Assembly: GCF_000419585.1 (NCBI RefSeq)
Contig: NZ_ATTH01000001.1
Coordinates: 2,254,005-2,318,004 of the forward strand
Source: Salisaeta longa DSM 21114
GTDB lineage: Bacteria > Bacteroidota > Rhodothermia > Rhodothermales > Salinibacteraceae
Direction of reading: 5' to 3'
DNA length: 64,000 nt
Of this stretch, positions 1-49,213 are shown in pieces. The notes beneath the pieces were generated by a model. The model saw only the letters and a list, made by a program, of their open reading frames with translations, was not told where the DNA came from and ran no database searches. The translations under genes were made by a program, and so were the position numbers. Numbering within the stretch: position 1 is the first letter of the stretch; each line of letters opens with the position of its first letter.

Positions 1-447
1 GCGGGAAAGGTGGGTCCAGCGGCGGGTGAGGCGCGACCGCAGGTAATGAAGCTGTGCGAGCTCGACCTGTGTTTTGGCTGCCCGCGTTTTGGCGCGGCTC
101 GCAAAGATGTCAAGGATGAGCCCGGAGCGGTCGAGCAACTTGCAGTTGACCTGCTTCTCGATGTTGCGCACCTGCACCGGCGCAAGGTCGTCGTCGAAGA
201 TGATCAGGTCGGCGCCATGCCGGTTGGCCATCCGCTGGAGCTGCCGCACCTTGCCCGACCCGATAAACGTCGCCGGATCGGGGCTCGTCATGGACTGCGT
301 CATGCGCTCAACCACCGACGCCCCGGCGGTGCGCGCGAGTTGCTCCAGCTCGTTCAGGTTATCACGGACGTCCCAGCGCGACACATCGGGCGTTGCGACG
401 CCAACTAAAATCGCTGTCTCCAGCGTCTCCTTCGTAGGGGTGTGCAA
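1..447 (-). CDS. hflX: GTPase HflX, N-terminal part (runs off the left edge)
   Basis: This is the 5' portion of the ribosome-associated GTPase HflX, which rescues or splits stalled ribosomes in the cytosol. The readable part is the HflX N-terminal domain: AILVGVATPD near the start, the glycine-rich FIGSGKVRQL segment, LIIFDDDLAPVQVRNIE, then LLDRSGLILDIFA and TQVELAQLHYL leading into RLTRRWTHL. All are hallmarks of the family. The G domain lies outside the window. An in-frame stop precedes the only nearby candidate start, a TTG at 447 (protein beginning LHTPTKETLET), so the start is TTG or an even rarer codon. The family call is secure; the start is not. Confidence 0.9.
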   Translation of the reverse strand, partial: MHTPTKETLETAILVGVATPDVSRWDVRDNLNELEQLARTAGASVVERMTQSMTSPDPATFIGSGKVRQLQRMANRHGADLIIFDDDLAPVQVRNIEKQVNCKLLDRSGLILDIFASRAKTRAAKTQVELAQLHYLRSRLTRRWTHLSR

Positions 448-563
448 AAGTGGAGGGACCGGTTAAGCCCAGATTGTTCGGGGAATACATCGAAGCGGTA
501 TGGAGCAGGATGTACGGCGAATGCAGAGAAATGTTGCGGTTTTGCTGCGTGCGCGCCCCTTCT

Positions 564-2498
564 TTACTCGGGTTGCAGCGTACGCCGGATGGTGCGTGTG
601 GCGGTGGCCTGCGTGCGCGTATCCTCCACGGTGACGGTAATGGCCAGCGCCCGCGGCTTTTTGAGGGCTTCCGTGGCCAGGTCGAGCAGCAGGTACTCGC
701 TGCTGCGCGCAGACGTGCCGGTGTAGGTGGCTTCGGTGGTCGTCGTTTGCACGTCGTCGCGCCACAGGGAGCGCCAGCCGCCCTCGGTGCGCTCGTTTAC
801 GGTGTAGGCCACGCGGTAACGCGTGCGTCCGGTGGCATCTTGCGCGAGTCCGTACACCTCAAAATGCAGCACGAGCGGCGTGCTGGGGGTGAGGGTTGGA
901 AACGGATACGGCGTCGCGCGCGTCAGGGTGCGCGCCGCGGTGTCGGGGAGCGTCATCACTTGCAGATCGCTCATGCGCAGGCCCGGCCCCGGCGGAAGCG
1001 CCGCGAGCGAGTCGCGGAGCACGGTGCCTTGTGCGCGCCGCGGGCCCAGCGTGCGCGCCGCGATGTTGTCGTACTGCGCCCAGTGCACGCGCAGATGCTG
1101 CATGGCCCGCGTGGCTGGCACCTGTAGCGACGCAACCACCGCTGCATCGGAGGAGGCGCGCTGGGCCGTGGCCGGCACCGGACGCACCTGCCGGGCGCGA
1201 TGGGTGACGCGATACGCCCGGTTGTACTGATTGAGGCGAAGGTACAGCAACGCCGCCCGCGCAGAATCACCCCGCAGATCGGCACTGCGCACGCCCCAAT
1301 CAATGGCCAAGCGCGTGCGGCCATCGGGCGTTAGGAAGCGCGTGGTTTGCACCGCCGCAGGCAAGCGCGGCACATCGTCGAGCAGGGCCGTGTACTGCGC
1401 CGGCATCGCCGCCCGCCGCCGACGCGCCGCCTGCACCTCCGCGCGGCGCCCCTGCTGCACGATGCGCGTCACCTGCTGGTTGGGGGGCGGAATGCCCATC
1501 ATAGGATCCCACGAGATGATGCGCGTCTGGTTGATGCCGCTGCCCACCTCCACCGACTGCGTGCTTCCATTGCCAAACGACTGGCCGGTGCGTGCCTCGA
1601 AGGCCGCATCGGCACGGGCCTTCACTGCCTGCATCTCCTGCCAGTCCATGTAGTTGGCCACGTTGTCGTAGCGCGCGCCGTAGTCGATATGCATAAGGGC
1701 CAGTTGCCGGTAGATGTACTCCATGGCGGCCAAGCTGGAATACGCAATGTTGTAGCTGCGCTCCGAGTTGCCGCGCCCGTAGCGGAGGGTGGGGGGCAAC
1801 AGTTCGCGGGGCGTCCCCAGCCGGTAGCAGTCGCCCGGGCGGCGAATGAACAGGTAGTAGCCCGCTTCGTGGATATGGTCGTACGCCCAGAACACGTTCT
1901 CGGGGAAATCGGATGCGCTCACCGGTACGCCAAACCGAAACACGTCCAGGAAAAAGTCGCCACTGTCGTACGTGACGGTTTCGGTGCGCGACGGGGGGCC
2001 GTACTGCACGTACATGTCGCCACGCACGTCCCACCCGGCGGGGGCCTCGGGGCAAGCGTAGGCGTGCTGTGCATGCACAAGGCGCATCACGTGCTCCTCC
2101 AGCCGCTCGTTGACCGCCGTCCCCGGCAGCACGTCTTGGCTGCGCCACCACCGCACAAGGGTAGAGCCCGCCGCCGGGCGAAACCGCCACGCTTCGGCAT
2201 CGGCACCCGGGTTAACGAGAATCTGCTGCTTGAACGCGTCGGACAGCAGGGGGACGAGCTGGGCCACGCGCCGCTGAAAGATCGCTCGCTGCCGCGTGCC
2301 TGCGTTAGGTTTTACGGCGCCAAGCAGACGCCGGTACGTCGCGGCCGCCTGCAGGCGCTCTTGGGTTTGCAGGGGCGGCGTGAGGCGCTGCAGATACGCA
2401 TCGGCAGCGGCAACGGTGAGCGAGTCGCGCGCGGCCGTCGGGGCGGTATCCCCCGTAGGCCCGAAGCCCAAAAGGAGCAAAGCAAGAAGCACAGACAT
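564..2498 (-). CDS. GWxTD domain-containing exported protein
   Basis: A 644-residue protein that starts at the ATG at 2498; an in-frame GTG at 2519 is an alternative. A hydrophobic stretch (SVLLALLLLGFG) at the N-terminus looks like a signal peptide. Around residue 155 the segment AGWDVRGDMYVQYGPPSRTE matches the core of the GWxTD family, which is common in Bacteroidota, Rhodothermota and Gemmatimonadota. The C-terminal half is rich in beta-strand-like sequence, ending in a region that resembles the Ig-like tail of that family. The biochemical function of the family is not established. It lies between hflX on the same strand and a divergent lipid-synthesis pair. Confidence 0.75.
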   Translation of the reverse strand: MSVLLALLLLGFGPTGDTAPTAARDSLTVAAADAYLQRLTPPLQTQERLQAAATYRRLLGAVKPNAGTRQRAIFQRRVAQLVPLLSDAFKQQILVNPGADAEAWRFRPAAGSTLVRWWRSQDVLPGTAVNERLEEHVMRLVHAQHAYACPEAPAGWDVRGDMYVQYGPPSRTETVTYDSGDFFLDVFRFGVPVSASDFPENVFWAYDHIHEAGYYLFIRRPGDCYRLGTPRELLPPTLRYGRGNSERSYNIAYSSLAAMEYIYRQLALMHIDYGARYDNVANYMDWQEMQAVKARADAAFEARTGQSFGNGSTQSVEVGSGINQTRIISWDPMMGIPPPNQQVTRIVQQGRRAEVQAARRRRAAMPAQYTALLDDVPRLPAAVQTTRFLTPDGRTRLAIDWGVRSADLRGDSARAALLYLRLNQYNRAYRVTHRARQVRPVPATAQRASSDAAVVASLQVPATRAMQHLRVHWAQYDNIAARTLGPRRAQGTVLRDSLAALPPGPGLRMSDLQVMTLPDTAARTLTRATPYPFPTLTPSTPLVLHFEVYGLAQDATGRTRYRVAYTVNERTEGGWRSLWRDDVQTTTTEATYTGTSARSSEYLLLDLATEALKKPRALAITVTVEDTRTQATATRTIRRTLQPE

Positions 2499-2682
2499 GA
2501 TCCCTACCGCATAATGCACAGCATCGGGGCGGCTGGCACACCGCCTTCACGTGTTCTCTACGAAAAGCGGCGAGAGATGCTCCCTCATGCGACAACGTCG
2601 TGACGTGCGCTGTGCCTTGGATACTTCTGAGGATTCTATCGTAAGGCATTTTGTCTCTTGTTTTTCTGTGCTCTGTTGTGTC

Positions 2683-3369
2683 ATGGCCCTTGCCGTGCGG
2701 CGCTTTTTATCGGCCTCGCCCATCGAGCGTTGGTCACTCGTCAACGCACTGGGGCTGCTCGTGGCTACGGGCCTCACGCTGTCGTCGGCGTCAATGGCGC
2801 CGGTTGCTCTTGTGGGCATCGGGTTGCTGGCCGGCCTGGGCGGCGTGGCCCGCGAGGATTGGACGCCCAGCGGCCGCTGGGGCTGGGCCAATGCCGTTAC
2901 CGCCGCCCGCGCTGCGGCCGTGGCCGTGTTGCCGCTCGTGCCCCCCACCGGCATCGCGGCTATAGGCCTTGTCATCTTGTGCACGGACGGCCTCGACGGG
3001 TGGCTCGCACGTCGCCAGGGCGAAGCCTCCACCTTTGGGGCCTTCCTGGATAAAGAAACGGACGCCTTCTTTCTGCTTATGCTGTGCCTGCTGGCTGCCC
3101 GTGCGCAGGTGCTGCCCGCGGGCGTTGTGGCGGCGGGGCTGCTCCGTTACGTGTTTGTGCTGGCCCTTTTTTGGCTACAGCCCGAAGCCCCCACGGAACA
3201 GCGCTCGTCGGCGGCCCGCTACGTCTTTGTGGCCGCCGTGCTGGGCCTGCTCCTGCCGTTTGTGGCCCCCCAGGCCCTGGCAGTTCCCGTAGCCCTGCTC
3301 GCGCTCGCTGCTCTGGGGCTCTCGTTTGCCCGATCGTTCTGGTGGATTTTTCGCTTTCGTACCGCCTGA
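2683..3369 (+). CDS. CDP-alcohol phosphatidyltransferase family membrane protein
   Basis: A 228-residue integral membrane enzyme of the CDP-alcohol phosphatidyltransferase family, which moves a phosphatidyl group from a CDP-lipid to an alcohol. The diagnostic motif D-x2-DG-x2-AR-x8-G-x3-D-x3-D is complete: TDGLDGWLARRQGE, then FGAFLDKETDAFF. Several hydrophobic helices surround it. The ATG at 2683 was chosen because the upstream in-frame extension is Cys/Arg-rich and not protein-like. The stop codon shares its last base with the next gene's start (TGATG), so the two are probably translated together. The acceptor alcohol cannot be read from the sequence. Confidence 0.85.
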   Translation: MALAVRRFLSASPIERWSLVNALGLLVATGLTLSSASMAPVALVGIGLLAGLGGVAREDWTPSGRWGWANAVTAARAAAVAVLPLVPPTGIAAIGLVILCTDGLDGWLARRQGEASTFGAFLDKETDAFFLLMLCLLAARAQVLPAGVVAAGLLRYVFVLALFWLQPEAPTEQRSSAARYVFVAAVLGLLLPFVAPQALAVPVALLALAALGLSFARSFWWIFRFRTA

Positions 3370-5120
3370 TGCCTACCGCCTCCCCTTCGCGCTCCGAGGT
3401 GCTGATCTGCTGGATCGGCTTTGCTGCGCTCAACGTGCTGCTGTTTGTGCCTGCGTGGGCCGCTGGGCAGCCCCTCAGTCCCTTTTTCCCGATGAGCGTG
3501 GAGGCGGTGGTGCTAGGCTCGGCGGTGCTGTGGAGCGCGGACCGCGCGTATGCAACGGGGGTGCGGCGCACGGCCGCCGTGCTGTACGGGGCGCTTTTTC
3601 TGTACGCGCTCTACGATGCGGGCATCTACCTTGCCACGCAACGTAGCGCCATCTTTTACGAGGACGCGCAGTACGTCGTGTCGACGGCCTACCTGCTGCA
3701 AAGCTTGCTGTCGTGGTCGCGTGCTGCGCTGCTGGTGGGTACCCTCGCGGGCCTCGCGGTGCTGCTTGGCGGCGTGATGCCGTGGACGTTCCGCGCCATG
3801 GCGCGGGCCGGACGACATCGCGCGTCACGGCGCATCCTGGCCGTCGGACACCTGGTGGTGTGGCCGCTCGTGTTCGTCGTGGCGCCGTGGCAGGCCTGGG
3901 GGGCCGAGAACCTCACCTACCAAACCGGAAACGAGCGCACCCGCGTGCGCACGCTTTCCGGCAAAATTGTGGAAAACGTCCAGGCGTCGCTGCGGCTACA
4001 CCAGCTGCTGGATGAATTGGAGCAGGCACCGGTAGACTCCACCTATTTTGGATACCGCTCGGTGCCGCTGCGCGAACGGCCCAACATCTACCTCCTCATG
4101 GTGGAGTCGTACGGCGCGGTGCTGAACTCGCACCCGGCGCTGCGCGCGCCCTACCGCCGCATGATGCGCCGCATGACCGATTCGTTGGCCGCCGATGGCT
4201 GGCACATGGCCTCGGGGCATGCCGTGGCGCCGGTACGCGGCGGCCGCTCGTGGCTGGCTATTGCCTCCACCCTCACCGGCGCGCGCGTCGGCCATCAGTT
4301 GCTGTTTAAACGATTCGAGCAGCATGCCGCCGGCTACCCGCATCTGGTGGATTTCCTGAACCGGCGCGGCTACCAGACGATGGCCGTGCAGGCGGCCACC
4401 CGCGCGCGGCCCGGCCTGCCGGCGCCCAACACCTACGGCTTCGACCGACTGCTCTACCAAAATGCGCTAAACTATCGTGCGCCCCTGTACGGCTGGGGCG
4501 GCGTGCCCGATCAGTACAGCCTCCACTACGCGCACGCCGTAGCCGACAGCAGCCGGGCGCCGCTCTTCCTCTTTTTTGAGGGCGTCGACTCGCATGCCCT
4601 CTGGAATTACGGATTGCCCCCGTACCTGCCCGACTGGCGCACCTTCAATGCGGCGGCTGCCCATCCGCAGCCCAGATCATGGCTCGATGCCCGCGCGCGC
4701 CTCGAGACGGCGATGCTGCCCGATTCGGTGACGAGCCCACGCATCTACGATGCCCCGGTCACGCAGCGCTACCTGCGCCACATCGCACACGACCTGCGCG
4801 TGGTGCGCGACTTTTTGCGCACGGCGGTGCCGCCCAACAGCCTGGTGCTGCTGATGGGCGATCACCAGCCGCCGGTACTGCCCAGCACCACCGCCGACGT
4901 CCCGCTGCACGTCCTGAGTCGCAACCCGGCGCTGCTCCGCGGCTTCACCTCGCACCTGGGGTTTACGTCGGGGCTGCTGCGACCGCCGGGACAGCCGCTG
5001 GCGCGCGTCCGGCAAGAAGCGCTCTACAGCATCCTCGTGCACATGCTGGCCGACACGTCGCGCACCCCGCGGCCCGCGATTCAGCCCAACGGCATCAGCC
5101 GCGCCCTGCTGGTCCGCTGA
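3369..5120 (+). CDS. Membrane-anchored sulfatase/LTA-synthase-like phosphatase-superfamily protein
   Basis: A 583-residue protein with about five N-terminal membrane helices (residues about 10-190) followed by an extracytoplasmic alkaline-phosphatase-superfamily domain. Visible landmarks are NIYLLMVESYG (first metal-binding strand), RGGRSWLAIASTLTG (the nucleophile region; Ser294 sits where lipoteichoic acid synthases have Thr) and LLMGDHQPPVL (late metal ligands). The family includes phosphoglycerol and phosphoethanolamine transferases acting on envelope lipids or glycans. The start at 3369 overlaps the stop of the CDP-alcohol phosphatidyltransferase by one base, which suggests both act on one envelope lipid. 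The substrate is inferred, not shown. Confidence 0.8.
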   Translation: MPTASPSRSEVLICWIGFAALNVLLFVPAWAAGQPLSPFFPMSVEAVVLGSAVLWSADRAYATGVRRTAAVLYGALFLYALYDAGIYLATQRSAIFYEDAQYVVSTAYLLQSLLSWSRAALLVGTLAGLAVLLGGVMPWTFRAMARAGRHRASRRILAVGHLVVWPLVFVVAPWQAWGAENLTYQTGNERTRVRTLSGKIVENVQASLRLHQLLDELEQAPVDSTYFGYRSVPLRERPNIYLLMVESYGAVLNSHPALRAPYRRMMRRMTDSLAADGWHMASGHAVAPVRGGRSWLAIASTLTGARVGHQLLFKRFEQHAAGYPHLVDFLNRRGYQTMAVQAATRARPGLPAPNTYGFDRLLYQNALNYRAPLYGWGGVPDQYSLHYAHAVADSSRAPLFLFFEGVDSHALWNYGLPPYLPDWRTFNAAAAHPQPRSWLDARARLETAMLPDSVTSPRIYDAPVTQRYLRHIAHDLRVVRDFLRTAVPPNSLVLLMGDHQPPVLPSTTADVPLHVLSRNPALLRGFTSHLGFTSGLLRPPGQPLARVRQEALYSILVHMLADTSRTPRPAIQPNGISRALLVR

Positions 5121-5137
5121 ACCATCGGCTACGTGCC

Positions 5138-5593
5138 TCAGTCGCGCTCGTAGTAGATGTGCTGCGAGACAAAGTGCTCGCCGCTGTCTGATGACGAAAA
5201 CGACGTCTCCACACCGCAATCCTGCGAATCGCTCACGCTGAACGACACAAGTGCGGAGTCATCATAATCATCGTCTTCCGCAACAACATCGAATCCGCAT
5301 TCGACTTCAACGTCAATGTCGCTGATTTCGGATGAGCCTCGGACGTAAATGTAGTAGCGATTGCCCGCATAGAACCGGCGCGTAAACGTCTTACTCTTGT
5401 CCGTATCCAAACGAAAAATCCGATACCCTGAAAGGTTCATGCCGGACCGGCTAAGCATTCGATCCATCGAGTCGTGATCGTCATCAACCAGTAGAAGCAA
5501 CTGATCGTCAGATGTTTGTGCCAAAGCAGGGTGCGTGGCAAAGCCAACGACAAAAACCAAGACAGCCCATAGTACAGCGTTTCTGTAGGTCAT
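5138..5593 (-). CDS. Small acidic secreted protein, unrecognised
   Basis: A 151-residue protein that starts at the ATG at 5593, giving a clean signal peptide (AVLWAVLVFVVGFATHPALA, cleavage likely after ALA-Q). The mature part is very acidic, with runs such as AEDDDYDDS, two cysteines (ECGF and DCGV) that could form a disulfide, and many serines. I do not recognise a family. Base composition is clearly lower in GC than the neighbours, and the 140 bp upstream are AT-rich, which hints at a later acquisition. It is transcribed convergently to the sulfatase-fold gene, with 17 bp between the stops. Confidence 0.6.
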   Translation of the reverse strand: MTYRNAVLWAVLVFVVGFATHPALAQTSDDQLLLLVDDDHDSMDRMLSRSGMNLSGYRIFRLDTDKSKTFTRRFYAGNRYYIYVRGSSEISDIDVEVECGFDVVAEDDDYDDSALVSFSVSDSQDCGVETSFSSSDSGEHFVSQHIYYERD

Positions 5594-5732
5594 GGGGCGA
5601 GACAGGTGGTGTTTTGTATTGTGATGTTGCAAGAAATGCACAAAAGTGTAAATTATGCAAGCAAGAATGACTCTTATCTACACCTCATCGCAATGCTATA
5701 AATGTTTTATTGCACAAACTGGCATCCAACAA

Positions 5733-6839
5733 CTAATCGAAAGCATCTTGCGTAGCTTTCCATAGGCGCATTGCTGCTTCGTCCCATGTAGGAAATGATG
5801 CAGCCGCTTGCTGCGCCGCTGCCTGCGCCGCTTCGCGCGCGGCGCCATCCACAATGAGGCGTTGCAGCGCCTTCCGGAGCGCTTCCGTGTCGCCGGCCGG
5901 TACCAGCGCGCCCGCCGGGGCCGCTCCCAGATTGTCGGGGAGGCCGCCCACCCGGTAGGCCACCACCGCACAGCCGCCGGCGAGGGCCTCGCGCGTGGCC
6001 ATGCTGCACGTCTCGAAGCGCGAGGGCAACACGAATACGTCGGCCGCTTGGTACAGCGCCGGCATCTCAGGCGACGGCACGGCGCCCCGGATGTCGAAGC
6101 GGTCAGCGACCGGCGTGGCCTCGATGGCAGCCCGCACCGCGCGGCCCGCGTCGGGGTCCAGCGCATCGTCGCCCACCAGCGTCCACTGCCAATCCTCCGC
6201 CGGGAGCGCGCTGAGTACCGCTACCAGTTGTGGCACTTGTTTGCCTGGCACCCAGTTCGCTACGGTAAGCAGTTGTACCGGGCGCTGCGGCGGGGCAGGG
6301 GCAGACGCGTCGGTACGAAAGCGGGCGTCGAGGCCGGGCGGCACCACATGACAACGTGCGGGGGCCGTTGGCACCGCATGCAGCGCCCGGCACACATACG
6401 CGCTGGGGGCCACTACGGCGTCAAACAACGCCAGCGCCCCGTGCTCGCCCGGATCATCTGCGGCCGTCGGGTCGACGCACGCGAGGTAGTGGGCCAGCAA
6501 CACAAGATGCGCATCGGGATGGGCGGCACGGAGCGCCTGCAGCGCCTCACGATGCCGCAACAGCAAGCTGTCGACAATCACCACCGCGCCGGGCGGCACC
6601 GCCGGAAGGGACGGCGGCGCATGGGCTGTGGGCCACGTCCACACGGTGGGCGGCGGCGCGGGCCACGCATCCAGCACCCGCCGGTTGTAGCGATTCCCGC
6701 CGGTGGGCAGCGCTTGGATGTCGGGCACGATCCAGCCTACAGGGCGCGGCATATCCCACAACGTCAGTTGCGTGCGGAGGCCAAGCACAGGCCCGTACCA
6801 AAACGGAGCGTCTGCGCTTGCATGAGCAGTGTGCTGCAT
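5733..6839 (-). CDS. Glycosyltransferase family 4 (GT-B fold)
   Basis: A 368-residue cytosolic glycosyltransferase. The C-terminal half has the GT4 signatures: QLLTVANWVPGKQ (start of the donor domain), VPSPEMPALYQAADVFVLPS, and the FETCSMATREALAGG nucleotide-sugar binding motif with the E-x7-E pattern, followed by VVAYRVGGLPD. The N-terminal acceptor domain is Ala/Pro-rich and less conserved. The start ATG at 6839 follows a region with no other in-frame start. The acceptor and donor sugars cannot be deduced. It stands apart from the polysaccharide cluster at 33-39 kb. Confidence 0.85.
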   Translation of the reverse strand: MQHTAHASADAPFWYGPVLGLRTQLTLWDMPRPVGWIVPDIQALPTGGNRYNRRVLDAWPAPPPTVWTWPTAHAPPSLPAVPPGAVVIVDSLLLRHREALQALRAAHPDAHLVLLAHYLACVDPTAADDPGEHGALALFDAVVAPSAYVCRALHAVPTAPARCHVVPPGLDARFRTDASAPAPPQRPVQLLTVANWVPGKQVPQLVAVLSALPAEDWQWTLVGDDALDPDAGRAVRAAIEATPVADRFDIRGAVPSPEMPALYQAADVFVLPSRFETCSMATREALAGGCAVVAYRVGGLPDNLGAAPAGALVPAGDTEALRKALQRLIVDGAAREAAQAAAQQAAASFPTWDEAAMRLWKATQDAFD

Positions 6840-7068
6840 CTGTTCTGAAGCGGCGCTGCCTTACTCGGGGACTGAGCCCAATATGCGACAACAGAGGCGC
6901 CGCCGTGTCGCGCTATTTGGTCAGGGATCAAGGCACCAGCTTGGGAGACCCGCCGCCATCCTAATTGATCGCTAATCCGGTTCTCATTGCGCTATAAGAT
7001 CTCCAGTCAGAGCGGACAGTCGGAGAGGGTGACCCTCCGGCGAACTTCATATCAATCACCATGGCGCA

Positions 7069-8427
7069 ATGATTCAATCGTTCTGGCAGAGAAAGCTCCT
7101 TATGGGCATTTTGGTGAGTGCCCTGGGGCTTTTGGCAGCCTCCGGCAACTACGACGTCTCGGCACATCCGCGCTCGGTTTCCGACACGCTTTTCTTCAAA
7201 GAAGCCACGGCGCTGCTCCTGAAGAACAACCCGCAGCTCCGTGCGGCCCGCGCTCGCACACAAGCCCTGAGCATGGGGGCACAGGCCCAATCCCTCTTCC
7301 CCAACCCAACGCTTGGACTGTCCGAAGAATACACGCCGTATACCAACGCCGACGGCGCCGACAATGAGTGGTTTCTGCAACTCAGCCAGCCCTTGAGGTA
7401 TCCGGGCGAGCAGCGCGCCCGGCGCCAGGCGGCAGAAGCAGCAAGTCGAGCAGCGAAGGCAGCGCTCCAGGAAACGCGCACCGCGCTGTACAACTCGCTT
7501 CGCCGCCGATACCTGAACGTTGTGGTTGCAAGCGCCCGTCTGCGAATTTTGAAGCGTTACACAGAGGCCGTCCGCCGCGCGGCCCGTGCTGCTACCGCAC
7601 GGTATGAGGAGGGCGACCTGAGCGCCATTCGCTACAGTCGGCTCATGAGTGCTCGGGCCACCTATGAAAGCGACCTTGCAGCCGCTCAGCGCAAGCGCCA
7701 AGCAGCTCAGATGCAGCTGACATACATGCTTATGGGCCAACAGACGCAAGGCCTCGACGGGCCCTCGCAGATCGGAGCATACGTGATTCCAGACTCCCTT
7801 TCTTTTCGAGCAATCACCGTAAACGCGCCAGCCGCCGTAGCAGCAGCCACGAGCCGGCGCCCGCTACTGAAGGCCCAGCAAGCCCGCGTTGAGTATGCGC
7901 GACAGACCCTCAGGGCCACGCGCTACCAGCAATATCCGGGGTTGGGCCTTTCGGCAGGCCCCAAACGGCTTGCCACGCCCGGTGGCAGCAGCCTCGGCTT
8001 TACCGCTGGAATAACCATGACACTGCCGTTGTGGAACGGCGGTCGCACGGCGGTGGAGGCACAACGCGGGCGTCGCAACCAGGCCCAGGCCCAGCTCGAC
8101 GCCTTCCAGCGCAGTGTAGCGGGAAGCGTACACGACGCTCTGCGCCGCCTCAAAAGCGCACAAACTCTTCTGCAGACGTCAGATCTCCAGGTGACGACCT
8201 CCCTCCAAGATGCGCTGTTCGTCTACGAGCAGGGCGAGATCACCCTGTTCGAACTGCTGGACACCATCGCCTCGGCCCGTCGAACGGAACTGCTGCAAGT
8301 TCGCCTAAGGGCCGAGTACTTCCGCGCCCTCTACGACCTGGAGACGGCCATTGGCGTTGGGCCGCACGATGCACCGATTGTCGTGGAGGGGGCGCTCTCC
8401 CCGCTTCGCTCTGCCCGACTTCCGTAA
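7069..8427 (+). CDS. cusC: TolC/CusC-type outer-membrane efflux channel
   Basis: A 452-residue outer-membrane efflux protein with an N-terminal signal-like segment (GILVSALGLLAASG) and two OEP repeats of long amphipathic helices. The typical phrase KNNPQLRAARAR opens repeat 1, and LFPNPTLGLSEEY follows. It is the channel of a tripartite heavy-metal exporter whose adaptor and RND pump follow in order. An ATG at 7102 would also give a signal peptide. A short dyad (GAGGG-TGA-CCCTC, 7025-7037) lies 31 bp upstream and could be an operator or a chance hairpin. The gene symbol reflects operon position, not proven metal specificity. Confidence 0.85.
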   Translation: MIQSFWQRKLLMGILVSALGLLAASGNYDVSAHPRSVSDTLFFKEATALLLKNNPQLRAARARTQALSMGAQAQSLFPNPTLGLSEEYTPYTNADGADNEWFLQLSQPLRYPGEQRARRQAAEAASRAAKAALQETRTALYNSLRRRYLNVVVASARLRILKRYTEAVRRAARAATARYEEGDLSAIRYSRLMSARATYESDLAAAQRKRQAAQMQLTYMLMGQQTQGLDGPSQIGAYVIPDSLSFRAITVNAPAAVAAATSRRPLLKAQQARVEYARQTLRATRYQQYPGLGLSAGPKRLATPGGSSLGFTAGITMTLPLWNGGRTAVEAQRGRRNQAQAQLDAFQRSVAGSVHDALRRLKSAQTLLQTSDLQVTTSLQDALFVYEQGEITLFELLDTIASARRTELLQVRLRAEYFRALYDLETAIGVGPHDAPIVVEGALSPLRSARLP

Positions 8428-8472
8428 CACGTACCCACCGCACCTTCACGAATGACTTTCTTTCCGCACTGT

Positions 8473-9579
8473 ATGTCTTCCGTTCGACTGTTTTCCCTTG
8501 TATTTCTCGTTCTCCTGCTTGCGGGTTGCGGAACTTCAGACCAATCGGCTGCGCCCTCTACGGCAGCCGACACCGCTGCCGCACCTGCAAACACCATTAC
8601 GTTGTCGAGGGCTGAGCTCGACGAAATAGACCCACAAACTGTTAGGGTTGCCCTGAAGCCTGTTATTACTACCCTTGAGTTTCCGGCAAAGGTACGTCCA
8701 TCGGCAAATCAGGAGGCATATGCCACCGCGCTGGTAAGCGGTCGCGTGGAGCAGCTCCGCGCCTCGGTAGGCACGCGCGTCGAGAAGGGCGAGGTGCTCG
8801 CCGAGATCACTGCTCCCGAACTCAGCCAGATGGTCGCGGACCTGCGCGCGGCCCGCGATGCGCTGGACCGCCAGCAGCGCCTCAAGGAACGGGGCCTAGC
8901 TGTTGAAAAGAATGTGCGAGCGGCCAAGCGCAACTGGGAAGCCGCCCGGCAACACCTCCGCTCCATTGGGCTATCGGCCGGCCGCATCAAGCAAGTAGCT
9001 TCAGGAAAGAAAGACCTGTTCACCTTGCCGTTAGAAGCTCCGATTGCCGGCACCGTACTTAACCGCATGGTCGTGCTCGGCGCTCCGGTGAACGCGGGCA
9101 GCAAGCTCTATCACATCGCCAGCCTGCAGCCTATTCGGGTGGTGGCTCGCATCTTCGAACAATCCCTCGACGAGGTACGGGTGGGCCAATCGGTCGCCAT
9201 CACCACACCGATGACCGATCGCGTTTATGAAGGCACGATCGACCGAATCACGCCGCAGGTGGATGACAAGAGCCGAGCTGCTACTGCCCACGTCGTACTT
9301 GACAATTCCGACGGGACGCTTCGTCCGGGCATGTACGCCGCCATGAAGGTCCACCAAACGTCTGCCGTGCAAGCGTCGCTCCCTTCCGACGTGCTACTGA
9401 CCGATGATTCGGGCGCCTACCTGCTTGTCCGCGAGGGTGCCCGGCAGTTTCGGCGCGTTTACGTAGACGCACAAGCAGAGACGGCAGGCGACGTTGCCGT
9501 ACCTTCGCTCAAAGTGGGCACTGAGGTTGTAACGAAGGGCGCTTACCAAATTGCAAGCGCCCTCAATCAGCGCGGATAG
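8473..9579 (+). CDS. cusB: RND efflux periplasmic adaptor lipoprotein (CusB/CzcB type)
   Basis: A 368-residue membrane-fusion protein. The ATG at 8473 gives a lipoprotein signal peptide with lipobox LAGC (Cys19), so the protein should be anchored to a membrane from the periplasm. The order is typical for the family: beta-barrel start (TTLEFPAKVRP), lipoyl half-motif (VEQLRASVGTRVEKGEVLAEI), short coiled-coil hairpin, second lipoyl half (LEAPIAGTVLNRMVVLGAPV) and the barrel segment GQSVAITTPMTDRVYEGTID. An in-frame ATG at 8452 is less likely. It connects the RND pump encoded next to the outer-membrane channel encoded before it. Confidence 0.88.
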   Translation: MSSVRLFSLVFLVLLLAGCGTSDQSAAPSTAADTAAAPANTITLSRAELDEIDPQTVRVALKPVITTLEFPAKVRPSANQEAYATALVSGRVEQLRASVGTRVEKGEVLAEITAPELSQMVADLRAARDALDRQQRLKERGLAVEKNVRAAKRNWEAARQHLRSIGLSAGRIKQVASGKKDLFTLPLEAPIAGTVLNRMVVLGAPVNAGSKLYHIASLQPIRVVARIFEQSLDEVRVGQSVAITTPMTDRVYEGTIDRITPQVDDKSRAATAHVVLDNSDGTLRPGMYAAMKVHQTSAVQASLPSDVLLTDDSGAYLLVREGARQFRRVYVDAQAETAGDVAVPSLKVGTEVVTKGAYQIASALNQRG

Positions 9580-9664
9580 GCCCTAACGCCTCGGCAGACG
9601 ATCGTGCCTGTCATGCCTAATGCCCGCTCCTTTACCATCTTCTCTTGAAACGCGCCCTGTATTC

Positions 9665-12600
9665 ATGTTTGACCGTCTCATTGCATCCGTTATTAAAAAC
9701 CGCGTGCTCGTCCTGCTCCTCACGGCTGTATTGGCCGGGTGGGGCATCTACAGCTGGCAGGAGGTACCTCTTGATGCTTACCCAGAGCTCACCAATAACC
9801 AGGTGCAGATTCTCACGCGCGTGCCGGGGATGTCTCCTGTAGAGGTGGAGCAGCTTGTGTCCTACCCTATCGAAACGAGCATGACCAACCTGAAGGGCGT
9901 GATAGACAACCGCTCCCTGAGTCAGTTTGGGCTTAGCGTGGTCACGCTCGTCTTTGAGGAAGACATGGATCCCTACTTCGTCCGTCGGCTCGTCTTCCAG
10001 CGCCTTTCGCAAGTAAAGAGCAAGCTGCCAGAAAAGGCCGAGGCGAGTTTAGGCCCGCTGTCAACAGCGCTCGGGCAGGTCTACCAGTACACGCTTACAG
10101 ACAAACCAGGCGATGCGTACTCGTACTCGCCGATGGAACTGCGCACCATCCAGGACTGGATTTTGGCTCCCGAACTGCGCACCGTAAGCGGAGTGGTGGA
10201 AGCCAACGCTCTCGGCGGATTCGTCAAGCAGTACCACGTGCGGTTCGACCCGGATCAACTCATTAACTACGATCTCACGCTTGACGACGTCTACGAAGCC
10301 CTACGAAAAAGCAATCGAAACGCCGGCGGGAGTTACATCACGCGCAACAGTCAGCAATATGTGGTGCGCGGCGTTGGGCGATTAGGAGCCGGAGACGACA
10401 GTATCATTGCGGACATCAAAAACACCGTTGTAACGAGCCGGAACGGCACCCCCATCTTGATCAGTGATGTGGGAGACGTAAAGGTGGGCCACGCGGTGCG
10501 CTACGGCGCTGCCACGGCCAACGGCAAAGGCGAAACGGTAACAGGCATCGTCATGATGCGCCGCGGCGCCAACGCCCAACAGGTTGTCCGCAATGTGGAG
10601 GCCAAGTTGGAAACGTTGAAGAAGCAGGCGATGCCCCCAGGGGTGGGCCTTGAAGTCTACTACAACCGCAACCAGCTGACGAGCGCTGCCATTTCGACGG
10701 TAACATCGAGTCTGCTCATTGGGGGCCTGCTTGTCCTCATTGTTCTCATCGGCTTTTTAGGCGACTGGCGTTCGGCGCTCATTGTGAGCCTCGTACTCCC
10801 CATGACGGCGCTTATCACGTTTATCCTCATGAACTACCTGGGGTTTAAGGCCAACCTGATGAGCTTAGGCGGCCTCGCCATTGGCCTCGGGATGTTCGTG
10901 GACGGGGCCATTGTGATGGTGGAAAACATCTACCGCCTCCGCGAGCAGAACCCAAACGAGTCGATTGGCCTGATTGTGGTACGCGCCGGGCGCGAGGTTG
11001 CCCGCCCCATCGCGTTCTCGGTAGGGGTTGTAATCGCGGTCTTCCTGCCGCTGTTCACCTTGCAAAACATGGAGGGGCGCATGTTTAGGCCTATGGCGTT
11101 TACCGTCTCTTTTGCCCTCCTTGCGTCGCTCTTCCTGGCCCTCACCATGGCCCCCGCCTTGAGTTCGTATTTGCTTGCCGCCGTAGGACAATCGTCGGAC
11201 GGCGACGCACCCGGTGATGATACGCCATCAAAAACCGGACTGTCATATCGGTTTATGCAAGCTTTGCAATCGGTGTATCAACCGGTGCTCGATGTTGCAT
11301 TGCGCTACCGCAGGATGACACTGGGGGCTGCAATCGTCATAGTGCTCCTGGGGGGATGGCTCTTTACATCGCTGGGGACGGAGTTTGCACCAGACCTTGA
11401 GGAAGGATCTGTAGCCATCCAGGTGGCACTCGAGCCGGATGCATCGCTTGAAACATCGACCGAGATCCAGACCAAGGTCGAACGTGCCCTCATGGAGTTT
11501 CCAGAGGTGACTACGGTCGTAAGCAAGACCGGCCGCCCCGCCGTGGCGTTCGACCCGATGGGCCAGAACCTGACCGACATGTTCGTGGGCCTTAAGCCTC
11601 GCGCAGAGTGGACGTACGACTCCAAAGAAGCCCTCGTGAATGCGATGCGGGACCGGGTACATCAGATTCCTGGGGCTAAATTTGCCTTTACTCAGCCCAT
11701 TGCTCTCCGTCTTGACGAAATGGTGAGCGGAACCAAAAGCGAGATTGCTCTCAAGATATTCGGGGAAGACCTCAAAGAACTCAAGCGCCTACAATCGGAG
11801 GCCACTGCGGTCGTGTCCGACATTGAGGGGGCTGCAGACGTGCTACCCTCGCAAATTGCTGGTTTTGGCTATGTGGAGGTCACCCTCCAACGCGATCTGG
11901 CGGCACGGTACGGCCTACAGGTAAGCACCGTTCAAAATGCCATCGACGCCGCAATTGGGGGCGATCAGCTGAGCACAATCAGCGACGGAGACCGCCGCTT
12001 TGCGCTAGTTGGCAAATTCAACAAGGCATCGCGTAGCTCCGTTGCATCCATCCGCAACCTGCCATTAACAACCGAGGAAGGGGGCCGCATTCGTCTCCAA
12101 GACGTCGCAACGATTCAGCTTACCGAAGCCCCGGCAGAAGTGACCCGAGAACAGGGCAAGCGCAAGGTCACGGTAGGCGTCAACTTGAGTGGGCGTGATG
12201 CCGGAAGCTTTGTAGAGGAAGCAAAGAAGGCCTTTCGGCAGAACGTGGATCTGCCCGCCGGCTACACGGTGGACTGGGGCGGTCAGTTCGAAAACCAGCA
12301 GCGGTCGCGTAAGCGTCTCATGCTTATCTTGCCGATCACGCTGATCATCGTGTTTGTGCTTCTCTATATGACCTTTAACTCCGTAAGCCAGGCCCTCCTC
12401 GTATTCCTGAATATCCCCGTTTCACTGGTCGGCGGTACGCTCCTCCTCTGGGGAATGGGCCTTTACATGAGCGTGCCGGCATCGGTCGGGTTTATCGCCG
12501 TGTTAGGCATTGCTGTACAGAACGGTGTGGTGATGGTCAGTTTTATCGATGATCTGCGCGAACGAGGACACTCGCTCACGGAGGCCGTACGAAACGGAGC

Positions 12601-45744: not shown

Positions 45745-46098
45745 CTATGCATCCGCAGTGGACGATGGGACGGCCTCTTCTGGTTCCGGAAGCGCTGCAT
45801 CGGCAACGGCTTCCGCGAGTTGCTCCGTCAGCTTGTGCAACGCGGCGGCCGCTTGCTCCGCTTCCTGATCGCGCTGTTCGTTGACCGTGTGGAGCTCATC
45901 GGCCAGTCCGAGGGCTGTAATGACGGCGGTGGTGAGCTCGTCCTGCTCGGGATGCGCCGCGCGAAAGGCTTTCATGCGCTCGTGCACCACGCGCGCCACG
46001 CGGTGGGTGTGCTCCTCATCTTCGGCCGAGACACGGAGTGCGTATTCTCGCCCCAAAATTTGAACCCGAACGGACTTCGACGCAGCGTCTTCACTCAT
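45745..46098 (-). CDS. zapA: Cell division protein ZapA
   Basis: A 117-residue protein. The globular head reads VRVQILGREYALRVSAEDEEHTHRVARVVHERM (read in two blocks), the ZapA signature, followed by a dimerising coiled coil (ALGLADELHTVNEQRDQEAEQ). An acidic, Ala/Pro-rich tail ends the protein. ZapA cross-links FtsZ filaments at midcell. It follows a coiled-coil gene by nine bases on the same strand, so they are probably co-transcribed. Confidence 0.88.
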   Translation of the reverse strand: MSEDAASKSVRVQILGREYALRVSAEDEEHTHRVARVVHERMKAFRAAHPEQDELTTAVITALGLADELHTVNEQRDQEAEQAAAALHKLTEQLAEAVADAALPEPEEAVPSSTADA

Positions 46099-46107
46099 AA
46101 GATATGC

Positions 46108-46653
46108 TTAGGACGATTGGGGGGCACGATCTTTCACCGCCGATAGCGCGGCTTGCAAGGTTTCGGGCACTGGCGCCTCCAGGTACCGATCGATGGCCTC
46201 GATGAAGGCGTTCAGCTGACGACGCACCTCGTGCGGGGGCGCCTGCAGGTGCAGCAGCGTTTCGTCGTCGGCCACCTCGGGGTACTGCGCCAGCTGCTCC
46301 TCCAGGTTTTCAATGATCATGTTGAGGTCCTCGTTCGTCCCCTCCAGCGCATCGGCCTCTTCCATCAGGCGCTTGTTGGCGGCTTCCAGCCGATTGCACT
46401 CGGAGGTTAAGGCCTCGATGCGGCGCTCTTTGGCAGCCAGGGCCTCCTGCAATCCGTCGATGGTTGCGCGGGCGGCGTGCAGCGCCCCTGCGGCCCGCTC
46501 GGTCTCTTGCTGCATGCCCGACAAGGCCTCCTGCAACACCTGCGGCAGGTGCTCCAGCGTGTGCGTGGTCGCGGCGCGGGCCGCCGCATCCTCGGCGGGC
46601 GTAAATGAAGGGCGCTCCGATTCAGGAAGTGATGGGTGGGCCGAATCGCTCAT
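46108..46653 (-). CDS. Coiled-coil protein upstream of zapA
   Basis: A 181-residue protein: a disordered N-terminus, a long heptad-rich coiled coil (about residues 45-120, including AAKERRIEALTSECNRLEAA and NEDLNMIIENLEEQLAQ) and a short C-terminal helical domain (EVRRQLNAFIEAIDRYLEAP). I know no named family. Its placement, nine bases before zapA and 86 bases after the PYP-like coiled-coil gene, suggests a role at the division ring or a related scaffold, by context only. Confidence 0.75.
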   Translation of the reverse strand: MSDSAHPSLPESERPSFTPAEDAAARAATTHTLEHLPQVLQEALSGMQQETERAAGALHAARATIDGLQEALAAKERRIEALTSECNRLEAANKRLMEEADALEGTNEDLNMIIENLEEQLAQYPEVADDETLLHLQAPPHEVRRQLNAFIEAIDRYLEAPVPETLQAALSAVKDRAPQSS

Positions 46654-46739: not shown

Positions 46740-48428
46740 TTACGGGGCGGTGAGGGGACGCAGGAGTAGCCACGTTCCGGTAGATGCGCGATACATATGA
46801 ACGGCGAACGCCCGCGGCGTGTATCCGGCGGCTGTAAACGTGTAAAGAAACGCGGTGTCGAGGGCTTCTTGGGCTACGCCGGTTGCGAAGCGCCCGTAGA
46901 ACAGCGGCGTGCGCGCAGCCGGTGCGAGGGCATCGAAGAACGGCTTTCCTACAACGGAGGCCGGATCGCTCGCTGTAATGCCCGGCACCTCGAGGGCCAT
47001 GGCGTTGGCGCATTGCACAACGCCGGCATCGTCGAGGCAGAAGGCGCCCACCGTCAAATCGTTCACCACGTCGCAGCCGTCCGCGTCGAGGCGCGCGAGA
47101 ACATCCGACGGGACCACCGGCGGCGTGCGGTGCGGCGTAGGGGCCGGATCGGCCGGGGGCGCGGGGTCAGTCGGCGGCGGGGGCGGGGCTTGCAAGGTCT
47201 CCATCACCTGCGCGAGATGCTCGGCCAGCTGCTTGCGGTCGTGCTCCAGCTGTTCGACGCGCTGCACGGCCGTCTCGGCGTTCTGCAAGCCGTGCTCAAT
47301 CAGGATGCGCTGCTGGTCTTGAAGCGCATCGAGCTGCGTCTCCAGCGTGTTGATGAGCAGCCGCATGCTCGCGGCTTCGGTGGCGGGCAGGTGCCGGTCG
47401 GCCGGCGAGCGCGCGCCGCGGAGGGCCTGCAGGTGATCGATAATCTCCGGCACCTCAAAGCCGGTGGCGTCGAGAGCAGCGTGTTGCTCTTTGAGCGTGT
47501 CGATTTCTTCGGCCATGCCCCGAATCATATCGGCCAGTTGTTGCGCGTCGGGCACCGACTCGATGCCCAATAAATTCCGCAGCTTCTTGGGCAACACGCG
47601 CACCGGGTCGGACTCGTGCAGGGCGGTGGCGTACGCCTCGATGCGCGTGATGAGGTCGGGCGCCTTCCGCGCATTCTCGGCTTCGCCGGCATCAGAAGGC
47701 ATATCCTCAGGGGCCGCATCGGCCGGCAGCAGCTTGCGCAGCTGTTGCTCGATGGATTCCAGGGTGTGCACCACGGCCTGCGCCTCGCCCACCGTGTCGA
47801 TGCCCAGCACCCGGCGCAGCGCCGTAGCCGCCTGCAGCACGGCGGTATCGGGTCGAATGCTGCCTGTGGCCGTGCGCTTGGTCTGCTTCAGCTTTTGCTT
47901 CTCGCGCTTCAGCTTTTTGTATTTCTCTGCGCGTACCTCGGCCTTGTGCAGGTCGTCGAGCAGCGCGTCTACCGATTCGTAGCCGGCGTTCACCAGCTTC
48001 TCTTTCTCGCGGTACAGCCGCTCCAGGTGGTTGGTCAGCGACTGCACGCGGTTGCGGGCCTCGTCAATCGACGCTACGCCCAGGGCATCCAGCAGGGCCT
48101 CGGTTTCGTCGTGCAGGGCCCGGAAGACCGCCTCCTTGCGATCGGCGCCCCCGCCGTGTTCCAGCTGCTCGACCAACGTACGGTTGCGGTCGCGCAGGCG
48201 CTCCAGCCGCTGGTTCATCTGCTGAAACACATCCTCGACCTCGCTCACCGTCACGAGCCCTTCGCCCCGGCTGTTTTGCTCGTCGAGCCGTTGCATTTGC
48301 TCATGCAGCGTGCGCACACGCGGCACCACTTCCGACGGGTCGTCCGTTCCCAGCACATTGCACAGCGCCGTCCACTGCGCTTCGTACCATTCGGCCGGCG
48401 GTGAAGACGTTGAAGTAGCCATAGGCAT
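46740..48428 (-). CDS. Coiled-coil protein with C-terminal photoactive-yellow-protein-like PAS domain
   Basis: A 562-residue protein from the ATG at 48428 (48422 also fits). Residues 1 to about 420 are mostly coiled coil, interrupted by short repeats with an LGxxSxxEA-type helix start (DALGVASIDEARNRVQSL, RVLGIDTVGEAQAVVHTL, NLLGIESVPDAQQLADMI). A Pro-rich linker (about 423-445) leads to a PAS domain that follows photoactive yellow protein closely: TVGAFCLDDAGVVQ, TASDPASVVGKPFFDALAP, LFYGRFATGVAQEALDTAF, then YTF and AVHM. The chromophore cysteine of PYP (APC) is alanine here (LAPAA, residue 504), so p-coumaric acid attachment is not expected. It leads the zapA group on the same strand. Confidence 0.8.
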   Translation of the reverse strand: MPMATSTSSPPAEWYEAQWTALCNVLGTDDPSEVVPRVRTLHEQMQRLDEQNSRGEGLVTVSEVEDVFQQMNQRLERLRDRNRTLVEQLEHGGGADRKEAVFRALHDETEALLDALGVASIDEARNRVQSLTNHLERLYREKEKLVNAGYESVDALLDDLHKAEVRAEKYKKLKREKQKLKQTKRTATGSIRPDTAVLQAATALRRVLGIDTVGEAQAVVHTLESIEQQLRKLLPADAAPEDMPSDAGEAENARKAPDLITRIEAYATALHESDPVRVLPKKLRNLLGIESVPDAQQLADMIRGMAEEIDTLKEQHAALDATGFEVPEIIDHLQALRGARSPADRHLPATEAASMRLLINTLETQLDALQDQQRILIEHGLQNAETAVQRVEQLEHDRKQLAEHLAQVMETLQAPPPPPTDPAPPADPAPTPHRTPPVVPSDVLARLDADGCDVVNDLTVGAFCLDDAGVVQCANAMALEVPGITASDPASVVGKPFFDALAPAARTPLFYGRFATGVAQEALDTAFLYTFTAAGYTPRAFAVHMYRASTGTWLLLRPLTAP

Positions 48429-48793
48429 AAGAGGCTGTAAGGTGCTGCTTCGATATAGCAGCACGAACATATCATAATACCAAAACGCATACTGTTACTC
48501 AAGCCCGCTGCCTAAAACCCAGGCAATCGCATCAATTTAAGGTTCGTCCTGACGCCGTTCAGGGATGGTATGCAAAAAGACGACGGCATGCCCCGGAAGC
48601 ACGAGCCATCTTTGAAGCGCACGTGTTGTTTGCACGGTTACTCATGCGATTGCCCTGGCCTGAAGCCAAACATGACGATCTTTTTGGAGCACCGGATTCC
48701 TGTAACCATGTCGGTATCTGCGGAATCCTTGCGCCGACCGCCGGCTATTCTTAAGGTGTTCGTTTTACCATTTCGTACTTACGCTCTTGCCTT
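48429..48793. other. Intergenic region between the divergent PYP-like gene and the 139-residue gene
   Basis: About 365 bp of lower-GC sequence holding the divergent promoters. I see no gene, stable RNA or repeat. Confidence 0.4.
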
Positions 48794-49213
48794 GTGACTG
48801 CCATCGACTCTGTTCCGGACGCCCACCGCACCATTGAAGCTGCCCTGCGCGAAGATCTCGACGACCAATGGACCGAAGTGCTAGGCAACTGGGAGGGCAG
48901 CACAAGCGCGCAACGGCGGGCGGTGCACATGTATGTCTCGGGGCTGCGAAATCGCATCTGCAAGGGATTGCTAAATATCGAAACGCCCGATGAGCTGATG
49001 CGCGGGCTGGCGCTTCAGTACATGGAGATGAAGTGCCACTGGATGATGCTGAACACGCAGATTCAGCAGCAAACGTTCGATAACGGTCGGGCCGACGAGA
49101 GCCTGATGTACCGCGCAACGTGCGTGAGCCTCATCATTCAGGCGCTTGAGCCGCTTCTTGAGCGCGAACGGGTCGACACGCTGTCCCGCTTTCTATCTGA
49201 GCCGTTTGAATGA
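48794..49213 (+). CDS. Unrecognised 139-residue helical protein
   Basis: A small, mostly helical, acidic protein from the GTG at 48794 (no ATG is available without losing the first helix). It has no signal peptide or membrane segment. Features are WTEVLGNWEGSTSAQRRAVH, a Met/Trp-rich helix (ALQYMEMKCHWMMLNTQIQQQ) and a final helix ALEPLLERERVDTLSRFL. I do not recognise a family. It lies upstream of terC but is 155 bp away, so linkage is uncertain. Confidence 0.6.
   Translation: MTAIDSVPDAHRTIEAALREDLDDQWTEVLGNWEGSTSAQRRAVHMYVSGLRNRICKGLLNIETPDELMRGLALQYMEMKCHWMMLNTQIQQQTFDNGRADESLMYRATCVSLIIQALEPLLERERVDTLSRFLSEPFE

Follow-up and report, generated by a model that had tools for sequence, protein, structure and literature searches.

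A gene of Salisaeta longa, cc-PYPlike, encodes a long coiled-coil protein that ends in a photoactive yellow protein (PYP) domain without the chromophore cysteine, and comparison of gene order among genomes indicates that it is a stray member of a two-gene module conserved in Rhodothermales, in which such a Cys-less-PYP coiled-coil protein is followed by a small PYP with Cys69 and Glu46. PYP is a bacterial blue-light sensor and a textbook photoreceptor; the relatives with the module are salt-loving bacteria. We give a probability of about one half to the reading that proteins of the cc-PYPlike type are pseudo-PYP coiled-coil scaffolds or effector partners of PYP, which would themselves no longer sense light. 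The gene lies in a 64,000-nucleotide stretch of the S. longa genome (the window), in which an Rfam search of the whole 64 kb gave no match; the features discussed here are collected in Table 1.

Table 1. Features of the window around the cc-PYPlike gene (positions are those of the window)
Feature	Position	Strand	Description or basis
zapA	45745..46098	-	Pfam PF05164, E=4.6e-18
cc181	46108..46653	-	Coiled-coil protein of the zapA operon; neighbour outside the PYP module
cc-PYPlike gene	46740..48470	-	576 aa, coiled-coil protein with C-terminal Cys-less PYP domain
Cys-less PYP-like PAS domain	46752..47111	-	Residues ~454-573 (576 numbering); TIGR02373, PDB PYP, AF2/Foldseek
Ala codon at the chromophore Cys69 position	46917..46919	-	Alignment
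Proline-rich linker, coil to PYP-like domain	47090..47180 (approximate)	-	Sequence
Coiled-coil region of cc-PYPlike	47180..48370 (ends approximate)	-	Four LGxxSxxEA-like repeats
up139	48794..49213	+	All-helical protein, divergent from cc-PYPlike; co-occurs with PYP

Fold and residues of the PYP-like domain

The open reading frame on the minus strand that a sequence-only reading of this DNA had placed at 46740-48428 (562 aa) is real and intact, and it can be extended to 48470 (576 aa). A start at 48428 or 48422 is more likely than one at 48470, since promoter-like sites upstream of the gene end at 48471-48474 and therefore favour a downstream ATG. Within the coil, the LGxxSxxEA-like repeat reported by the same reading was recovered, in four copies instead of the three counted (residues 40, 130, 222 and 301, with starts near 48353, 48083, 47807 and 47570), against a mean of 0.05 in shuffled sequences. 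No MCP signalling domain was detected in the protein with Pfam.

The C-terminal domain is a PYP-type PAS fold and a sequence homologue of PYP, as had been proposed, and the profile search and structure prediction suggested at that time as checks both placed it inside the PYP group. The TIGR02373 (photo_yellow) profile matched it at E=1.8e-15 and PYP chains from the PDB matched it at E~1e-14 (phmmer). In addition, its AlphaFold2 model reached a pLDDT of 93.3, and in a Foldseek search each of the 40 best matches was a chain of PYP or of the PYP-derived FAST/nanoFAST (top E=1.4e-11); the best PAS domain outside this group reached only E=1.3e-4. The domain scored 57 bits with TIGR02373, below the curated cut-off of 143 bits, which also misses the genuine Cys69-containing PYPs of S. 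longa (110 and 99 bits), so that NCBI annotation will tend to overlook these.

Residues were numbered in a multiple alignment that took the conserved Asn43 as its anchor. The alanine already noticed in place of the chromophore cysteine was confirmed at its codon, and a cysteine assigned to the Tyr42 position proved to be off by one, as the domain reads Cys-Ala-Asn at 41-42-43. The alignment also gave Glu46 to Ala and Thr50 to Pro, two replacements that the earlier reading had missed, as it had the other five PYP domains of the genome. Measured against the residues that mark the PYP family, the window domain thus has Ala at Cys69, at Tyr42 (or Phe) and at Glu46, and the loss of the chromophore residues should make it light-independent by itself, as the sequence-only reading had thought possible. 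A redox reading built on Tyr42 to Cys is ruled out because position 42 is Ala; redox-type Ppr-PYPs have Cys at both 42 and 50, where the window domain has Ala42 and Pro50.

The PYP gene pair and its genomic company

The genome of S. longa encodes six PYP domains: the window copy, two pairs (C1:604207/603385 and C1:283228/282678) and one on contig C2. Each pair begins with a gene for a long coiled-coil protein that carries a Cys-less PYP domain, and its second gene encodes a small PYP keeping Cys69 and Glu46. The pair at C1:283228/282678 is followed in turn by a gene for an AMP-forming ligase, presumably one of those that load PYP with its chromophore; its match to the 4-coumarate ligase model is weak (E=4e-6), so its substrate is read from context. 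A gene of the histidine/tyrosine ammonia-lyase family lies elsewhere in the genome.

PYP was found in 24 of the 245 genomes of the class and in 19 of the 27 Salinibacteraceae genomes. Two other families of the order have the long/short pair as well; at a locus of one of them (L140), up139, cc-PYPlike, PYP and ligase genes all lie in one cluster. The comparison set held 86 PYP domains, 27 of them Cys-less and 59 with Cys69. All 27 Cys-less domains are carried by cc-PYPlike proteins of 354-1225 aa, spread over three families, and 57 of the 59 Cys69-containing domains belong to proteins of at most 257 aa. A Cys69-containing PYP lies immediately downstream, on the same strand, of 22 of the 27 Cys-less genes (gap of at most 289 bp, or overlapping), and two more Cys-less genes come directly after one; the 15 class genomes in which cc-PYPlike occurs all encode such a PYP too (Fisher 4e-18). 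Outside the class, PYP matches in a phylum-wide sample were short open frames, except for a weak partial match in a 1059-aa frame, and plasmid records contained only ordinary PYPs.

All the Cys-less domains form one clade (UFBoot 100), sister to the clade-B Cys69-containing PYPs of the same lineage (support 99). Finite dN/dS values for Cys-less domains in close pairs were 0.05-0.19, which is purifying selection as expected for a functional domain. Furthermore, the replaced core positions are conserved (Pro50 in 24 and Ala46 in 21 of the 27 domains), a consistency unlike random decay. A pseudogene or simple decay is rejected for the family on the basis of dN/dS and for the window copy on that of its intact reading frame.

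The divergent neighbour up139 encodes a protein of 139 aa in which the motif YRATCVSLI is nearly invariant; Pfam gave no match to the protein. Of the 24 class genomes that have PYP, 21 also have up139, against 1 of the 221 that lack PYP (Fisher 4e-26), and in 18 of its 22 genomes up139 adjoins a PYP or cc-PYPlike gene, being usually encoded divergently next to PYP even where cc-PYPlike is absent. Its structure model is confident (pLDDT 90.7) and gave no PDB fold match at E<=0.001; a sequence match was likewise not found. From this distribution up139 is a candidate second partner of PYP. A single up139 homologue was found in a genome of the class that lacks a PYP match (locus L149, G186:C312, 8923-9375); it adjoins a ribD-like gene.

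Other genes were observed around these loci. At seven relatives' loci (L066, L067, L068, L078, L079, L082 and L084) an OmpR-type response regulator adjoins, convergently, the form of the pair that we call module A. Two clusters (L077 and L083) read cc-PYPlike, PYP, second cc-PYPlike and AMP ligase, with two Cys-less proteins around one PYP, and their second cc-PYPlike is highly diverged. In S. longa itself, a gas-vesicle cluster (GvpF/L, GvpN, two GvpA/J, GvpK, GvpG and an ArsA-like ATPase; L007, G000:C1:595001-612000, 298-12407) follows directly, on the same strand, after a cc-PYPlike gene (1069 aa) and a Cys69-containing PYP, an order that suggests blue-light control of buoyancy in this organism. 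None of the PYP loci examined in relatives showed such a cluster. For Rhodobacter capsulatus, gas-vesicle genes next to a PYP gene have been described before, according to PMC3646047, which cites Kyndt 2004. A coiled-coil protein of 264-280 aa, cc280, whose repeat starts with LGxxxPxxAxxxIRTM, is encoded repeatedly just downstream of module A PYPs (L007 7541-8380, L066 10576-11403, L068 7928-8722). Another unpaired cc-PYPlike gene (L009 10521-12719), near the end of the 151-kb contig C2 of G000, precedes a gene whose product is related to the 280-aa coiled-coil protein from the gas-vesicle locus.

The window copy and a possible role of the Cys-less domain

The window protein fits the cc-PYPlike family, with its domain in the Cys-less clade and its coil homologous to the N-terminal coils of relatives' members (E down to 7e-58). 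The coil matched relatives' module A proteins at E=7e-58 and 2e-56, against 4e-31 for the gas-vesicle-linked paralogue of its own genome (L007), and the gene is divergent from up139, as at relatives' module A loci. The window gene is thus the module A orthologue at its ancestral site. No Cys69-containing PYP lies beside it, there being only 86 bp to cc181, and two are encoded elsewhere in the genome, so that it is a family member that has lost its PYP neighbour. The ratio of domain to coil identity was 0.74-1.02 between the window orthologue and relatives, against values near or above 0.9 for most paired orthologues. Relative to most paired orthologues, the domain has drifted more than the coil, as expected from relaxed constraint, the effect being modest. 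There is a suggestion that unpaired Cys-less domains evolve faster than paired ones, but rapid change is also seen in some of the paired domains (L069/L071).

Taken together, the gene pairing, the co-occurrence with PYP and the conservation described above suggest, from genomic context, that the Cys-less domain is a fixed partner of the light-switching PYP, the coiled coil being scaffold or output. The sequences show that a PYP duplicate was fused to a coiled coil in Rhodothermales, that it lost the chromophore residues Cys69, Tyr42 and nearly always Glu46, and that it stayed paired with a small chromophore-competent PYP. The Cys-less domain could then dock PYP by PAS-PAS contact or by a docking face shaped like PYP; under blue light PYP would unfold or be reshaped, which would alter this contact, and the coiled coil may pass the signal on by changed assembly or effector recruitment. 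The window copy might work in trans with the two Cys69-containing PYPs encoded elsewhere, or might now be a light-independent scaffold, an option which the faster drift of its domain relative to the coil fits. Against the partner model, gene pairing can reflect inheritance alone and the window copy has no adjacent Cys69-containing PYP; in addition, six Salinibacteraceae genomes keep PYP and up139 with no cc-PYPlike gene found, so PYP can work without cc-PYPlike there. More tentatively, these genes could make up a dedicated PYP output system of Rhodothermales, in which cc-PYPlike would act as the receptor of PYP activated by light, up139 would be another component and, in S. longa, a paralogue would head the gas-vesicle operon.

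Since long repeated coils make up most of the protein, and the domain of the window orthologue is less conserved than its coil, the PYP-like domain could instead serve a cytoskeletal coiled coil purely as a structural cap or for dimerisation, and its closeness to PYP would then be historical. We consider this unlikely: the strong purifying selection on paired Cys-less domains and, across the family, the repeated adjacency to a Cys69-containing PYP both argue for more than a cap. Rather unlikely, too, is a role of the Cys-less domain as a sensor of another cue, such as a small ligand or redox state, with the coil as output and independent of PYP. In its favour, a redox-sensing role has been put forward for the Cys-less Ppr-PYPs of methylobacteria (PMC9664959), and the core of the Cys-less domains shows a consistent set of changes, namely Pro50 and a small hydrophobic residue at each of 42 and 46; however, the Cys42/Cys50 pair is absent, and the domain keeps the gene company of a Cys69-containing PYP, not of redox enzymes.

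The sequence-only reading had rightly recognised zapA and had tentatively tied the domain to it and to the division ring. The cc-PYPlike gene indeed lies upstream of cc181-zapA on the same strand, and no terminator-like site was found in the 86-bp gap between them, so co-transcription is possible in S. longa. However, none of 20 relatives' zapA loci had a cc-PYPlike gene or any PYP domain, whereas cc181 was found at 15 of the 20. In all three relatives' loci read, cc181-zapA sits after pheT, and pheT of S. longa is at C1:1548056, about 750 kb from zapA, which makes the junction of cc-PYPlike and zapA a local rearrangement. The linkage is thus unique to S. longa among the genomes examined, an outcome that the sequence-only reading had itself named as refuting; zapA is a chance neighbour brought adjacent by rearrangement, with no role, and the link drawn earlier is not supported. 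A division-ring scaffold of the ZapA/ZapB type is therefore a very improbable identity for the window protein, and the cell-division angle can be dropped.

Comparison with known PYP systems

The PYP family has been defined by Cys69, the site of the p-coumaric acid thioester, and its clade B includes Salinibacter and Leptospira (PMC9664959). The window domain shares with clade-B PYPs the fold and the profile similarity, and the Cys-less clade is sister to Cys69-containing PYPs of the same lineage; it differs from them in the replacement of Cys69, Tyr42 and Glu46, in the long coiled coil and in its score (57 bits against the TIGR02373 cut-off of 143). In methylobacteria, Ppr-PYPs lacking Cys69 are N-terminal in phytochrome-histidine kinases, carry Y42C/S50C and have been proposed to have a redox role (PMC9664959). 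Together with the 'PYP_like' group of that study, in which some cc-PYPlike members may be included, they are like the window domain in being PYP homologues without the chromophore cysteine. In contrast to the Ppr-PYPs, the domain described here is C-terminal on coiled coils, has Ala42/Pro50 and is paired in the family with a separate Cys69-containing PYP, and the published redox proposal does not apply to the window domain as it has no Y42C/S50C. The MCP-PYP fusions (PMC12826048) likewise place PYP at the C-terminus, behind a long helical coiled coil; unlike the window protein, they retain Cys69 and possess an MCP signalling domain.

A PYP-binding protein of R. capsulatus is cited in PMC9664959 as a proposed partner of a stand-alone PYP. 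By its description alone, it can be likened to cc-PYPlike as a proposed partner. To our knowledge, no PYP-like domain has been reported on it.

The signal output of PYP was named as an important knowledge gap in a 2025 survey (PMC12826048), which took in only Cys69-containing homologues and so could not see the cc-PYPlike family. The conserved cc-PYPlike/PYP pair and up139 provide specific candidate partners for this long-sought output, and the window gene, a natural orphan, provides a useful control. No description of a coiled-coil/Cys-less PYP protein paired with PYP was found in the searchable literature, the 'PYP_like' list of PMC9664959 lying outside that search. PYPs without the cysteine, and MCPs fused to a C-terminal PYP, were already known (PMC9664959, PMC12826048), and what appears to be new here is the Cys-less-PYP coiled-coil protein paired with PYP.
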